A DNA stretch of 23,015 bases from the IMG/VR virus record IMGVR_UViG_3300049793_000066, positions 1 to 23,015 of that record; one strand, written 5' to 3'. The DNA is from a virus. Made by a program: the position numbers and the translations under genes. Each line of letters opens with the position of its first letter. The stretch's first letter is position 1. This document shows, one piece after another, positions 2,001-23,015 of the stretch. Below the pieces are notes generated by a model. The model had not been told where the DNA came from. It searched no databases and saw nothing but the letters and a program-made list of their open reading frames with translations.

Positions 2001-3920
2001 TTAGTATTTGATAGAGCCACGCACAGCTTGCTGTGTAGCTGGTGCTTTCTTCGGTAGACCATTTGCAACTGCAGTATCCAATCCAGCAGTGATCTCATTC
2101 ACCTTAGTGCTCAGCGCGTCAGCAGCTGCTGGTTGCGGTGCGAACATAGAATCAAAGCTACGATTCAGTGAACTCCCAGCACTACCAGCACCGTCAATAC
2201 CTGCATCGATAGCGTGGAGGAAACTATTACCGATCATCTTATTCACAGCAGGAAGAAGTTTTACACTCAGCACACTACTCTGTCGCTTAATCAATGCACG
2301 TGAGATCGCATCTGGTTTAGTGAGATCCACAATTTGGTTTTCGTTGAATGATCCCGGAGCTACCTCAACTGAGGCATTGTAGCTGAGAGATGGCGTGAGT
2401 CCAAATCCTGGCAGATTCCGCATCGCCAGATTCGTTTTAACTCCCACATGGTACACAGTACTAAGTTCCACTGCTTCCGCGTGAGTGATCACACCTTTCG
2501 CCACTGCATCTCCCACATAATTCATGATCTGCTTAGGATCTGTGAGTTGCACGCCCTGCTTAATCAAAGGTGCGAATACTTTCTGGTACACAGGGAGAGC
2601 AGCTACCGTAGGTGAGTTTGCGCCAAGAGAGTTAATACTGGGAATTTGATATGGGTTAGTTGCATCTCCCGGCTTAACTTCCGCTGCGTAGGTTGCAAGT
2701 GTTTGTTTCGAGACTGCATCCATAGCAGCTGCTACCGAAGCTGGATCTTTTGGATTAAGTCCCATCAGTGCTGGGTTAGGGTTCTTACCCGGAAGCGCAT
2801 TCGGATTCATTGCAGTTCCAACGATACTCGCACTGGCAGAGAGTAGCTGCTTTACTGGGAGCTGAGTTGGATTCAGTTGTGCAGCAGGGATCGAAGCCAG
2901 AGTAGAAGCAGCCGCACTTGGAGATGCTCCGAACATATTAATCCCAGTAGCTTTCGCAAGTTCACCGGCATCTAGAAACTTCTGCATCTGAGCGCTCAGT
3001 GGGTTCTTACCTCTCAGCGCAGCCAGCACCATCTTACCATTTACATCATCCAGTTCTGAGCCAGCTCCGAGAATAGCAACTCGGCCGCGGTTAATAGTAT
3101 CCACTACACTCTGACCGTACGCTTGCTGCTCATGCTTATCTGCATCGCGCTCTGCGTACTCCTTCTGCTTCTGAGCAAACTCCTGCTTCGCAAGCGAGAG
3201 ATGTTCTAGACTGATTCCAATTTGTCTTTCCGTGTTACGAGCGCCATTAACATCAAATTGCAGACGTAATGATTCCTTCGAATTATTCAGAGCTGCCTGA
3301 ATCCCAGCTACATTATAACTGAGTCCCTGTGCAGCTGCCTTATTCGCTTCCACTGTAGCAGCTGCGGCTGCAATACGTGTTGCTGCCTCCGCGCTCGCAG
3401 CTGTAAGTGGTTCACTGATTGCATTCTGAGTTTGCACTGTTGTCTGCGTGTTCGCATTCATAGTCTGAATACGCGCATTGGCAGATTCTAACTGAGCGTT
3501 CGCGGCGTTGTGCTTCGCAATGTCACCACCTACGGTGAATTGATTCATGATGTATTCGATTGGATTATCGAACAGAGTCACAGAATCCTTGCGAGCAATC
3601 TCTGCTAGTGCTTCATCTTTAGTAGCTTGAGCTGCATCAGCTGCTGCTGCGTACAGAGTAATCTGCTCACTTACATCTGAGAGATTCGTATGAAACGCAT
3701 TGGCAGCTTTAATCTTATCCGCCTGAGTACGCAGAGCAGCAGCTTGGGCAGCAGCAGTCACAGTACTCTGGTCAGTAGCTACCTGCGCATATACTTTGGA
3801 ATCAGCCTGACTCAGTGCTGCCTGCGACTGAGTTAATGCTACGATCTGTTGAGTCGCTGCGTTAGCGCCTGACTGATAGGCACCTACATTAGCGATCAAA
3901 TCTGTGAGGGAATCAGGCAT
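2001..3920 (-). CDS. Ala-rich internal virion protein (639 aa)
   Basis: The chosen start is the ATG ending at 3920 (MPDSLTDLIANVGAYQSG), preceded by AAAGGA at normal spacing. A longer frame to 4004 exists but lacks a ribosome binding site and lies inside the upstream gene. Residues 20-290 are strongly Ala/Gln/Thr-rich with heptad-like spacing (repeats of AAA, QTQ and KAAAQ types), suggesting long helices or coiled coil. The C-terminal half has Pro/Asn-rich segments and no recognised catalytic motif. The start overlaps the stop of the upstream 397-residue gene by 8 bases, suggesting translational coupling. It sits between two other probable ejection proteins. Most likely an internal virion protein released into the envelope at infection; family assignment is inference from composition and gene order. 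Confidence 0.8.
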   Translation of the reverse strand: MPDSLTDLIANVGAYQSGANAATQQIVALTQSQAALSQADSKVYAQVATDQSTVTAAAQAAALRTQADKIKAANAFHTNLSDVSEQITLYAAAADAAQATKDEALAEIARKDSVTLFDNPIEYIMNQFTVGGDIAKHNAANAQLESANARIQTMNANTQTTVQTQNAISEPLTAASAEAATRIAAAAATVEANKAAAQGLSYNVAGIQAALNNSKESLRLQFDVNGARNTERQIGISLEHLSLAKQEFAQKQKEYAERDADKHEQQAYGQSVVDTINRGRVAILGAGSELDDVNGKMVLAALRGKNPLSAQMQKFLDAGELAKATGINMFGASPSAAASTLASIPAAQLNPTQLPVKQLLSASASIVGTAMNPNALPGKNPNPALMGLNPKDPASVAAAMDAVSKQTLATYAAEVKPGDATNPYQIPSINSLGANSPTVAALPVYQKVFAPLIKQGVQLTDPKQIMNYVGDAVAKGVITHAEAVELSTVYHVGVKTNLAMRNLPGFGLTPSLSYNASVEVAPGSFNENQIVDLTKPDAISRALIKRQSSVLSVKLLPAVNKMIGNSFLHAIDAGIDGAGSAGSSLNRSFDSMFAPQPAAADALSTKVNEITAGLDTAVANGLPKKAPATQQAVRGSIKY

Positions 3921-5117: not shown

Positions 5118-5714
5118 TTATCCTTTAGTTGTAACTTTAGTGGTACTCACCGTGACCGGCATACCAGATTCTCCTGCCTGAGCCTTACCTCGGAACCAAG
5201 ATGCGATTCCTAGGATCGGCATGGCTACTCCGTTGAGCGCAGCTTGAGCTGTCAGCATCTCAGGAATATTACTCACCAGTGAGGGTTTAAATAGATACGC
5301 AATGAACACCACGATCGAAGCGGATACCAGATTGAATGCTACTGCGAATCCAATTGCAGGTCTCCAACTATACGTGGGCCAGTGCTCCGCTGCAGCTTCC
5401 GCCTGCATGGTAGCATTCACAGCTACCGCCGCAGCTACTTCTGACTGATACGCTTGCACACTCAGTTGCTCCATCTTATAGAGCGAATCAACTTGGAGCG
5501 TAGCCATCTTCAGTTGGAACTCTTGGTCCATTGCTTTGAGTTCCGCAAGCTTCTCAGGAGTCATACCTCCGAGCATGCTCTTAACTGCGTCGATACTAGC
5601 TCCTGGAAGTCCTAACTTCTCACCTACGAAGGTAGCAGCTAAACCTCCTAAGGGGCCGCCGAGTGCAGTACCTATCCAAGGAAGTACACTCTTAATGAGT
5701 TCTGAAGGATTCAT
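5118..5714 (-). CDS. Holin-like membrane protein of the 3-TM type (198 aa)
   Basis: ATG ends at 5714 (MNPSELIKSVLPWIG). The stop of the preceding gene overlaps it as ATGA, the classic coupling arrangement, so the upstream extension to 5786 is rejected. It has a Gly-rich hydrophobic N-terminal segment (11-31), a polar helical middle (50-110), then two clear membrane helices at about 120-142 and 154-174. A WRP motif (117-119) sits just before the second hydrophobic segment. This layout, Gly-rich N-terminus, helical spacer, WRP and two C-terminal helices, matches the GTA-type three-transmembrane holin family as I know it. Holins form inner-membrane lesions that time lysis and release the endolysin. 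The neighbouring peptidase and small membrane protein support this. Confidence 0.75.
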   Translation of the reverse strand: MNPSELIKSVLPWIGTALGGPLGGLAATFVGEKLGLPGASIDAVKSMLGGMTPEKLAELKAMDQEFQLKMATLQVDSLYKMEQLSVQAYQSEVAAAVAVNATMQAEAAAEHWPTYSWRPAIGFAVAFNLVSASIVVFIAYLFKPSLVSNIPEMLTAQAALNGVAMPILGIASWFRGKAQAGESGMPVTVSTTKVTTKG

Positions 5715-17669: not shown

Positions 17670-19271
17670 TTAAAAACACGAGTTATCTGAGAGTACTGCG
17701 ATCGAATCCAACTCCTGGGATACTCCAATCTCCAGACTCACTAAGAATTCACCATACAACTCTATCACTTTCGGAGCGTATGTGATGCAATCCAGGAGTC
17801 CGTCAGTATTATCCCGCTTGAGTGGATTAAATCCTACAATTTGCAAGTCTACCGCAGGTCTGCATGCTGTGGATACGAAGATTTCACCAGCCATGAGGGA
17901 TTTAAACATGGATACTATTCGAGTATTCTTGGATATAGATCCTGAATAGATCTCCACCGCTTGGATACCGACTAAGCCTTTCTGAGCACAGATGAAATCA
18001 AACCAATAGAGAAGGGAATATTGATACGCGTTAGATTCAATTGCGATCAGGCGACAGTTATGCCGCAGTGCCATACCAAGCGCTACTCCAATTGTCTGCC
18101 CTGGACTTAACCTATCTTCCACAAGTTCGATCAGCACAGGCTTCGTATCGTATATTTCCCAGTATGTTACTGACACAGCATCAGAGTTCGCTTTATCATT
18201 CGATGGATCAATGATGATAAAGTTACCGACTGGGATATCATTCGGCTCGTACGGGAGAGCAGGTAACTTCGAGAGATCTACTAGGTTATTTGCACTTGCA
18301 TTCTCATCATTAAGTACTTCTGCAAAGAATATCTCCGGGCGACCAGCTGCCAGATCTGACTCGTACTCTTCCAGGAGTTGCTTAATCGGTTGCAGATCTT
18401 CCCAGAGAGATTCACCATTCGCAAGAATCCCACCACAGATGAATTTCACCCACTGAGGATTTGTCTTTAACTTCCGCAGAATTGAATTCTTCGTTGGGTA
18501 CATATTCCCAATGAACACGTACATGCAACCTAGAGGGGATTTCGCTTTCATCGCAGTACCAATCATCCACTGCTCAAGCTTATCAGATTCCACCACAGAA
18601 TCTGCACACTCACGAGTCTGCGCATCATCAAAGATCATCACATCTGGACGCTCATTCTTTAGATTCAGACCTCGGAGTGCACCACCTACACCAAGTCCTG
18701 CAAGTATTATGTTACGTCCTCGAAATCCAAACTTCTTCAGTCCCTGAGTATCTTTCTCCATCCCCAGTTTCCAGTCACCGAACACAGCTTTCACATTCGG
18801 TTCCTCTAGCATATCTACTACGTCAGCAATGATATTTTCTGCGAGAGTAGCAGTAGCGCCTATAATCAGAATGAATTTCTTTTTAGTGAAAACTATGCAA
18901 TAAAATATGAAAATTTTCATAAGTGTGGATTTACCGAATCCGCGAGGTAAGCCTAGAACCAACTTACTGAAGTCCCTGGACTTATGCACATAGGATAGCA
19001 ACCAGTTCCACACAGTTTTAAACACAGCTGGAAATAAGAACTGAAACACGGTAGGCATGATGAGAGCAGCTAGGAAATCCAGTGAGTCTCGTGAGGCATC
19101 ATGAATCTCCTGCTGCGAGGCATTGATCTCTTGAGTGGTTTGTGCCTCATCTATCAGCCGCTGGGATTTCAGATATGCTTCTTCTTCCTCTTGAGTGAGT
19201 TCGATCCCAGCTTCTCTCAGATCCTCTCCATCGAATCCAAGAGTCTCCATATTTTTCGAGTGGCTACTCAT
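17670..19271 (-). CDS. terL: Terminase large subunit (533 aa)
   Basis: ATG at 19271, overlapping the stop of the 65-residue gene by 8 bases. Motifs in order: Walker A GLPRGFGKST (107-116); Walker B VMIFDD with the following A (211-217); coupling motif YVFIGN (251-256); then the RNase H-like nuclease with FIIIDPS (Asp355), LIAIESN (Glu412) and NTDGLLDCI (Asp490/Asp494). ATPase and nuclease domains are both present with usual spacing, so the enzyme appears intact. It translocates DNA into the procapsid through the portal and cuts the concatemer. An N-terminal acidic helix (24-60) may contact the small subunit. Upstream is the putative small subunit and downstream the portal, the standard packaging order. 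Confidence 0.93.
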   Translation of the reverse strand: MSSHSKNMETLGFDGEDLREAGIELTQEEEEAYLKSQRLIDEAQTTQEINASQQEIHDASRDSLDFLAALIMPTVFQFLFPAVFKTVWNWLLSYVHKSRDFSKLVLGLPRGFGKSTLMKIFIFYCIVFTKKKFILIIGATATLAENIIADVVDMLEEPNVKAVFGDWKLGMEKDTQGLKKFGFRGRNIILAGLGVGGALRGLNLKNERPDVMIFDDAQTRECADSVVESDKLEQWMIGTAMKAKSPLGCMYVFIGNMYPTKNSILRKLKTNPQWVKFICGGILANGESLWEDLQPIKQLLEEYESDLAAGRPEIFFAEVLNDENASANNLVDLSKLPALPYEPNDIPVGNFIIIDPSNDKANSDAVSVTYWEIYDTKPVLIELVEDRLSPGQTIGVALGMALRHNCRLIAIESNAYQYSLLYWFDFICAQKGLVGIQAVEIYSGSISKNTRIVSMFKSLMAGEIFVSTACRPAVDLQIVGFNPLKRDNTDGLLDCITYAPKVIELYGEFLVSLEIGVSQELDSIAVLSDNSCF

Positions 19272-20894: not shown

Positions 20895-21572
20895 ATGAGC
20901 GTCGCAGATATGAATGTAAATACAGTAGTAGCATATACCAGTGGAGTTACTAAGCCGTTTAGTGGGCAGAGGTTAGCATCATTCAACTGGAAAACAGGAA
21001 CGAATAAGGATTCACTCTGGTTTGGGATCAAGAGAGAGAGTAAAGCGGTATCATTGCCACAAATCGCAGCAGCAGATATTGCAGCGAATATTACAGCGCT
21101 TACACCACATATCCGGGTTTGGTTACATGGTGTACAAGATAAGATGATTAGGGAGATGCTAGATGTGAGTGATACTGTACTGCATGTAACTAATGAGAGT
21201 ATCGGGATTGCTGCGATGTGTGAGTTTCTGGAGGAAAGCAATGAGAGCGGGAGAGTTACGAAGGCAGATGTAGAGGTATGGTTTAAAGAGAATATCGCGG
21301 ACTCGTTGATGGTATCGCTCGCGGAAAGATTAGGGGTATCGGATACTCCGAGTCAGGCGGACTCAGATAAGATTGATGCGGTAGTTGCTGCGTTCAAGGG
21401 AAAGATTTCCGCGCTCGCAGGAGGGAAAACAAGTTACGATCCGAAAACCGCTGCACAACTCCAGAAGTGTCTGAGTCTGGTTCCTGCTGGCGATGTACTT
21501 GCGGATAGATTCACGCTGCGGTTGCAGAAGATGGTGGAAGTGAAAGAGGATGATTTACTGAATGCGTTGTAG
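20895..21572 (+). CDS. Early protein of unknown function (225 aa)
   Basis: ATG with GAGGT 8 bases upstream. It starts MSVADMNVNTVVAYTSGVTK. Residues 20-50 look beta-type (ASFNWKTGTNKDSLWFGIKR). The rest is mostly helical, with IGIAAMCEFLEESNESGRVT, ADVEVWFKENIADSLMVSL and AAQLQKCLSLVPAGDVLADR, and ends KEDDLLNAL. Residues 117-150 have a helix-loop-helix feel but no complete EF-hand or DNA-binding motif. It is acidic and has no membrane segment or signal peptide. It is the largest complete gene on the early strand and is followed by a long stem-loop. A DNA-metabolism or host-interaction role is possible but not shown. Confidence 0.85.
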   Translation: MSVADMNVNTVVAYTSGVTKPFSGQRLASFNWKTGTNKDSLWFGIKRESKAVSLPQIAAADIAANITALTPHIRVWLHGVQDKMIREMLDVSDTVLHVTNESIGIAAMCEFLEESNESGRVTKADVEVWFKENIADSLMVSLAERLGVSDTPSQADSDKIDAVVAAFKGKISALAGGKTSYDPKTAAQLQKCLSLVPAGDVLADRFTLRLQKMVEVKEDDLLNAL

Positions 21573-22039: not shown

Positions 22040-22333
22040 ATGAGGGATTGGTTATCACATCACATAAGAGGTATTGATATGTCAGACAACGCATGGAATC
22101 TAGCATCACAACGAACTGAGATTGTTGTAAGTATCGGCGTAACTAAGATACGATCGCATCAAATGCGAGATCATTTAAGGTTAGCTAGTTTATTTCAATA
22201 CTACTTCAATGCTTGCCAGTCTGATGTTGAATCGAGCTGCGGAAACTTTACGTATGAGAATCGTATCAGTTGTTTTAGATTTGCAATAGCACATACGTTG
22301 AGTGTGTTAGATGCAATGATACTGCCAGATTGA
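22040..22333 (+). CDS. Small early protein of unknown function (97 aa, or 84 aa from an internal start)
   Basis: Two in-frame starts are both well equipped. ATG 22040 has GGAG 6 bases upstream. ATG 22079 has GAGGT 7 bases upstream and gives MSDNAWNLASQRTEIVVSIG. The shared part contains helices QMRDHLRLASLFQYYFNACQ and CFRFAIAHTLSVLDAMILPD, with Cys residues between them. The longer form adds MRDWLSHHIRGID. The gene immediately precedes the large inverted-repeat region. No family recognised. Confidence 0.68.
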   Translation: MRDWLSHHIRGIDMSDNAWNLASQRTEIVVSIGVTKIRSHQMRDHLRLASLFQYYFNACQSDVESSCGNFTYENRISCFRFAIAHTLSVLDAMILPD

Positions 22334-22366
22334 TCCCTTGGTTTGGTCGGACTCAACCAAACTTCG

Positions 22367-22389
22367 CCAAACCAAACCAAACCAAGTCA
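22367..22389 (+). repeat. Left arm of a perfect 23-base inverted repeat
   Basis: The arm consists of CCAAA units (CCAAACCAAACCAAACCAA) ending GTCA. It is the exact reverse complement of 22782-22804, 392 bases away. CTTGGTTTGG at 22337-22346 also pairs with 22377-22386 inside this arm, giving an alternative local hairpin. Confidence 0.95.
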
Positions 22390-22675
22390 TCAGGTGCCCG
22401 GCCTAGCTCTCCCCGACCCCTCCCCGTCGGTACAGTATCTATCTACCAGTGTATATCCTAGTATCCAGTATCTATACCACTCACTATATCCACCATATAC
22501 CTATCCTTCCGTCCCATAGGTGTAGTGAGTAGTATATGTATAGGTAGGTATATATGTTTCTTATTTATTTATTTCAATTTAAGTACCCCTATATATAGAG
22601 GCTAAGAACTATTCACATACTCTAGGAGTCACTCCCCTATATACACACTCTCGGGAGTGGTATCCCACATACACT

Positions 22676-22692
22676 ACCCTGCTACGCAGGGT
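22676..22692. promoter_or_regulatory. GC-rich hairpin with 3-base loop
   Basis: ACCCTGC and GCAGGGT form a perfect 7-base-pair stem around TAC. Short-stem, 3-base-loop hairpins are used as single-strand promoters by N4 virion RNA polymerase and occur in some replication origins. Sequence similarity to N4 sites was not seen. A second hairpin, CACTC-TCGG-GAGTG, lies at 22646-22659. Confidence 0.5.
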
Positions 22693-22747
22693 TACACCCA
22701 TAGATAGGGAGATGGGAGTGTAAGTAACTGGGAGTTAGTGGGAGGCA

Positions 22748-22776
22748 GGGGCATAGGGCAGGGCAGGGTAAGGGGG
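22748..22776 (+). other. G-quadruplex-type tract
   Basis: Five runs of three or more G are separated by loops of 4, 2, 2 and 3 bases (22748-51, 22756-58, 22761-63, 22766-68, 22772-76), meeting the usual G3N1-7 rule. It ends 4 bases before the promoter -35. The C-rich tract at 22411-22425 would place G runs on the opposite strand at the other end of the region. Confidence 0.6.
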
Positions 22777-22780
22777 AGGC

Positions 22781-22810
22781 TTGACTTGGTTTGGTTTGGT
22801 TTGGTACAAT
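22781..22810 (+). promoter_or_regulatory. Strong sigma70 promoter for the last gene
   Basis: TTGACT and TACAAT, each 5 of 6 to consensus, are separated by 18 bases made wholly of TTTGG-type repeats. The transcription start would be near 22817, with a leader of about 64 bases. The right arm of the inverted repeat fills the -35 and spacer, so any protein binding it would control this promoter. Confidence 0.75.
22782..22804 (+). repeat. Right arm of the perfect 23-base inverted repeat
   Basis: TGAC followed by TTGGTTTGGTTTGGTTTGG, exactly complementary to 22367-22389. It overlaps the promoter -35 and spacer. Confidence 0.95.
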
Positions 22811-22815
22811 GCGGT

Positions 22816-22829
22816 TGAGGTCGACCACA
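22816..22829. promoter_or_regulatory. Operator-like palindrome at the predicted transcription start
   Basis: TGAGGTCGACCACA centres on the perfect palindrome GGTCGACC (22819-22826), with matching TG/CA ends. It lies just downstream of the TACAAT element, where a repressor site would block transcription. Confidence 0.4.
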
Positions 22830-22880
22830 CGAAGGGCTCATATAGTAAGTTTCGTAATTCAATCAATCGGAGAATCTATC

Positions 22881-23015
22881 ATGGCATTAGAGCATAAGAT
22901 CGCATGCAACGGAGTAAAACCAACTAAGAGTGAGGTATGTGCACTAGCTGCAGAATTGGTGGAACTGGAAGGAATGACGGGATTTAGGATCGCTATTGTG
23001 GAGGCATTCAAATCA
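22881..23015 (+). CDS. Early gene, N-terminal 45 residues; runs off the right edge
   Basis: ATG with GGAGA 7 bases upstream, behind the strong promoter at 22781-22810. The visible part starts MALEHKIACNGVKPTKSEVC, then ALAAELVELEGMTGFRIAIV and EAFKS, and is open to the window edge. It looks helical. No domain is recognised from this much. As the gene under the most regulated promoter in the window, it may open a replication or regulatory operon. Confidence 0.7.
   Translation, partial: MALEHKIACNGVKPTKSEVCALAAELVELEGMTGFRIAIVEAFKS

Follow-up and report, generated by a model that had tools for sequence, protein, structure and literature searches.

Inverted repeat arrays around an AT-rich core: a candidate iteron-type replication origin in PaP2-related podoviruses

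Why should a phage genome keep a non-coding region enclosed by two matching inverted arms: as a replication origin, as a control switch or in some other capacity? The question is raised by a 23,015-nucleotide stretch of viral DNA (IMG/VR record IMGVR_UViG_3300049793_000066; the whole stretch is called the window hereafter), near the end of which the initial annotation had suggested a replication origin or a looped control element. To judge from its sequence, the window covers part of the genome of a podovirus that has Pseudomonas phages PaP2 and 119X as distant relatives: its TerL is 33-38% identical to those of PaP2/119X/PaMx41, Polaromonas phage Tiera, EBPR podovirus 3 and Aeromonas phage P5, and ~59-69% identical to those of some 80 environmental contigs. 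At the DNA level, no similarity was found between the window and phage records. Packaging and head genes (TerL at 17670-19271, portal, major head protein) are carried by the minus strand and small early genes by the plus strand, and the element lies among the early genes, ~3.1-3.5 kb upstream of TerL. Its parts and neighbours are as follows.

22331..22840, no strand: whole element, two inverted repeat arrays around an AT-rich core (59-nt imperfect arms)
22367..22389, plus: left exact arm, CCAAA units with a 5-nt period (one more CCAAA at ~22357)
22391..22545, plus: left flank, C-tracts and then TATCTAT-type pyrimidine-rich DNA (from sequence and skew)
22561..22606, plus: AT-rich centre and core TTATTTATTTATTTCAATTTAAGTACCCCTATATATAGAGGCTAAG, counterpart of TTTTAAAG-N-G/C run-TAAAAATAGACC in relatives
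22634..22780, plus: right flank, purine/G-rich with G-tracts (from sequence and skew)
22782..22804, minus: right exact arm, CCAAA units inverted (from repeat analysis)
22781..22810, plus: predicted outward sigma70-type promoter, TTGACT-18-TACAAT, recurring in relatives
20895..21572, plus: conserved early gene (225 aa, of no known family or fold), the anchor for locating the element in relatives
22040..22333, plus: small open reading frame that stops at the element's left edge (from the ORF list)
22881..23015, plus: first open reading frame 3' of the promoter, truncated where the contig ends (from the ORF list)

An exact inverted repeat encloses a non-coding region

As initially annotated, the arms CCAAACCAAACCAAACCAAGTCA (22367-22389) and TGACTTGGTTTGGTTTGGTTTGG (22782-22804) are 100% complementary over 23 nt at a spacing of 392 nt, and no other exact inverted repeat in the window with arms within 600 nt of each other is as long. 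When the window was dinucleotide-shuffled 200 times, the longest such repeat averaged 11.5 nt and reached 15 nt at most (0/200 attained 23 nt); the 23-nt repeat is not due to chance. Imperfect pairing extends to 59 nt (22331-22389 with 22782-22840, 81%). The region had been described as non-coding, with C-tracts in its left and G-tracts in its right part, and both descriptions hold: inspection of the open reading frames revealed no credible gene within 22333-22881, and interior GC skew amounts to -0.26 for the left half and +0.16 for the right half. The adjoining open reading frame at 22040..22333 returned no relatives when an internal 85-aa piece was searched. The direct repeats pointed out earlier are also present, CAGTATCTAT and CCCCTATATA twice each and GGGAGT in visible copies, but the duplication of CAGTATCTAT and CCCCTATATA could by itself be explained as chance. 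No second copy of the 22331-22840 element was found in the window.

The layout recurs in relatives with changing repeat units

Relatives were collected with a TerL profile (the 225-aa early protein as sole query did not find them), and their elements were extracted in one orientation with the conserved 225-aa gene as anchor. An inverted-repeat scan of the related contigs pointed to the equivalent place, and ~34 relatives carry an element of matching architecture, on contigs long enough to show that it lies 2.3-3.5 kb from the terminase gene on the upstream side. From the outside inwards, the order is a tandem array of short repeats, usually a C-rich flank, a single-copy AT-rich core, usually a G-rich flank and the inverted array. 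The same layout was evident by reading in eight contigs outside the core-profile and first-promoter-table sets; two of the eight, L110 and L112, have a weak promoter or none.

The repeat unit varies between phages, while both arms match within each phage: the units include AATCAT (L009), AATTGAC (L046, L053, L068), CAGACTG (L064), CATGTGA (L082), TATCCCG (L045), TGCCA (L006, L010, L039, L047) and CAAGGT (PaP2 group). Left-arm units are mainly forward and right-arm units mainly reverse, at 2-5 copies per arm in most relatives, and in several phages the two arms hold unequal numbers. L064 and L046 share 88% TerL identity and have different units, each matched in both arms. The initial annotation had proposed comparing relatives for conserved arms with variable filling. 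The outcome differs from that pattern, as the arm sequence is not conserved and the arms change in concert, but this concerted change is informative.

The 225-aa gene was considered as an obligate partner of the element and rejected, because L014 carries the element with no homologue detected and the gene is inverted in L033, L035 and L037. In these three, the 225-aa gene has the opposite orientation with respect to TerL and lies ahead of TerS, and an element-like, weak inverted repeat lies 0.25-0.85 kb upstream of the gene. In Polaromonas phage Tiera, a large non-coding gap harbours a ~74-nt tandem duplication (L097:23926-24073) and also a 23-nt inverted repeat with arms 427 nt apart.

Core, flanks and local skew

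The centre of the relatives' elements is AT-rich and is followed by TTTTAAAG, a G or C run and a TA-rich stretch often ending in ATAGACC. TATCTATA/CTATCTAT is located at 0.2-0.4 of the element length, and GGGTTGACA is found between the purine-rich flank and the inverted repeat array. A profile of the core matched only element cores in all contigs, including that of L084 outside the training set; the core is nevertheless a weak motif, because the profile scores low (best E 0.05).

Of 23 elements, 15 have a GC skew that is negative before the centre and positive after it. In phage 20Aug470, where the gap in question measures 569 nt (684-1253), the cumulative skew of the whole genome, proposed earlier as a check, reaches its lowest point no more than a few kb from the element, yet it tracks gene orientation, so that calling an origin from global skew is confounded.

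GATC is scarce in the elements: 34 elements together contain six sites, where dinucleotide shuffling predicts 39.5 (the lowest of 100 shuffles gave 28), and one of the window's 129 GATC sites falls within its element. This may simply follow from the richness of the DNA in TATC/GATA, or Dam sites may genuinely be avoided.

A candidate iteron-type origin

On balance, we regard the element as probably an iteron-type replication origin that also contains an early promoter, with one fast-diverging phage protein binding both arrays. The initial interpretation is thereby partly borne out: the origin-like anatomy (iterons, AT-rich core, dyad symmetry and local skew switch) stands and recurs in the ~34 relatives. 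Several short direct repeats of one unit are present (CCAAA with a 5-nt period in the window), and between the arrays lies an AT-rich region, as an iteron origin requires (22561-22606 in the window). The concerted arm change seen between L064 and L046 is as expected of sites for one protein; the two arrays presumably change together because they serve one such fast-diverging protein. Unequal copy numbers between arms are likewise typical of protein sites.

A phage-encoded initiator would bind both arrays and bend or bridge them, and would melt the AT-rich core, upon which the phage helicase, primase and polymerase could load; the replication machinery would then move outward from the core in both directions. 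The same initiator may also tune the promoter overlapped by its distal sites, as plasmid Rep proteins do.

DnaA boxes are common to many but not all iteron origins and are not obligatory. None (TTWTNCACA) was found in 35 elements, so the origin would be DnaA-independent, and a search of the same number of elements for IHF sites returned one relaxed match only (in L052). No initiator family was recognised among the early proteins tested, the window itself being without most of the early region, and fold searches with the conserved 225-aa and 361-aa early proteins gave nothing convincing.

Two observations concern early proteins of relatives. By eye, a 299-aa early protein (L087:10979-11878) resembles a distant paralogue of the 225-aa protein, both having an acidic/leucine-rich tail. 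In L068, two early genes adjoining the element (1509-2354 and 2948-3691) encode long, low-complexity Ala-Asn/Ala-Asp triplet-like runs.

The apparently episomal persistence of the PaP2-like phage Shea (PMC13348215) fits a plasmid-like origin without proving it.

A predicted outward promoter in the far arm

The far arm carries an outward-directed sigma70-type promoter, with TTGAC in 28 of 35 elements versus 2 of 35 at the mirror position, and a mean best score of 11.0 versus 7.4-7.7 for the three other combinations of arm and direction. In the window (TTGACT-18-TACAAT) the right repeat array itself forms the spacer; in relatives the distal array is inside or beside the promoter, whose -35 and -10 often overlap the repeats. 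The promoter case rests on this recurrence, because a lone site is not significant (one was found by the window scan versus 1.9 expected). In L087, a terminator-like hairpin (AACCCTGCTGTGTGCGGGGTTTTACT, 5133-5170) is seen by eye a short distance downstream from the distal-arm promoter, ahead of the next gene, which suggests a short leader RNA or attenuation.

The promoter suits a pure transcription switch equally well. Such a switch, which is the main rival to an origin, would have the arrays as repressor or activator operators, a protein looping the 300-450 bp between the arms and thereby controlling the outward early promoter, and the diverging operators as immunity specificities. As in looped operator pairs, repeated sites lie over a promoter and a second set lies at a distance; moreover, phage Shea forms turbid plaques and shows superinfection resistance (PMC13348215). 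On the other hand, a switch leaves unexplained why an AT-rich core is conserved midway, why the skew changes sign symmetrically and why the interior has dyad symmetry, and no repressor or regulator gene was recognised nearby. We consider it a serious possibility but a minority one.

Dyad symmetry, folding and genome ends

As a single strand, the whole element of the window folds far better than shuffles (z -6.9 for the plus and -7.9 for the minus strand), but these full-element scores overstate pairing: without arms the interior scores -0.2 and -2.4, the bulk of the signal thus coming from the arms, and -1.1 and -3.1 under quarter-preserving shuffles. The interiors of several relatives score below -4, while the elements of the PaP2 group (z -1.6) and of L006 fold poorly. 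Because unit numbers are unequal and the PaP2-group fold is poor, it is not arm pairing that is conserved. The cruciform that the initial annotation envisaged from arm pairing is accordingly doubtful. Armless interiors nevertheless exceed same-length pieces of their own contigs in self-complementarity (p 5e-5, quarters shuffled separately) and in palindrome score (p 9e-4). Across 23 elements, this self-complementarity was without strand preference (top -2.8, bottom -2.5), which argues for symmetry of the DNA over a strand-specific RNA.

A large structured RNA, in which RNase would cut the arm stem and release an RNA of 400 nt, would draw on the very stable predicted fold and on the relatives' interiors with z below -4. 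It is improbable in view of the lack of strand preference, the poorly folding PaP2-group and L006 elements and the recurring promoter directed out of the element; nor did the element match any entry in Rfam.

Very unlikely, too, is a genome-end or packaging site at which terminase would cut, a reading retained on account of the PaP2, 119X and PaMx41 records, each of which has its break within the element. These records start and end within ~15 nt of each other (PaP2 record ends in L094:1-420 and L095:13600-13784), and terminase genes are nearby. However, the later records may merely follow PaP2 numbering, the PaP2 end joins the PaP2 start as continuous sequence in FBPa48, and metagenomic contigs as well as the records 20Aug470 and FBPa48 pass straight through. 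For phage Shea, PhageTerm indicated terminally redundant ends, with the position not stated (PMC13348215). A mobile element (MITE or IS) was rejected, since the element is single-copy, sits at a fixed place and has differing arms in relatives.

A possible link between origin and immunity

Returning to the origin, no description of one for this widespread podovirus group, to which PaP2, 119X, Tiera and many environmental contigs belong, was found in the open-access papers searched. The element thus offers a testable candidate, and its fast-changing repeats a route to the initiator; it is also a possible basis of the episomal carrier state reported for the PaP2-like phage. Going further, one protein bridging both inverted arrays might set both DNA replication and the early promoter, with the fast-diverging repeats acting as an incompatibility or immunity tag. 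We advance this joint function speculatively and think it rather unlikely; if true, the repeat tag would decide which related phages can coexist in a single cell in the episomal carrier state. A linked origin-immunity element of this kind has no description that we found in the open-access papers searched for the PaP2-related phage family. The pattern itself, in which the two inverted arrays of one genome agree but their letters differ from relative to relative, should be useful elsewhere.

Comparison with known systems

The iteron origins of plasmids R6K, pSC101, P1 and F have autoregulated rep promoters. The element resembles them in short repeats for one initiator (binding being putative here), AT-rich unwinding DNA and extra sites over a promoter. 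It differs in having two inverted arrays symmetric about the AT-rich core, units of 5-10 nt, no DnaA box and no recognised Rep gene.

Lambda CI, GalR and the stoperators of mycobacteriophage L5 exemplify looped operator pairs. Shared with these are repeated sites for one (here putative) protein over an early promoter and a specificity that differs among related phages; here, however, the sites are tandem short units instead of single operators, and a conserved AT-rich core lies midway.

In the origins of SaPI/PICI phage satellites, two iteron sets flank an AT-rich region. The origin of the Vibrio PLE has RepA_N iterons (PMC7145576). Element-specific iterons, an AT-rich region and a phage-like replicon are common to these systems and, if it replicates as proposed, to the present element, beside which neither a SaPI-type Rep nor RepA_N was recognised and whose arrays are inverted copies overlapping an early promoter. 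Inverted arrays around a core, a recurring promoter in one array and concerted divergence of the arms set the element apart from the iteron examples considered here.
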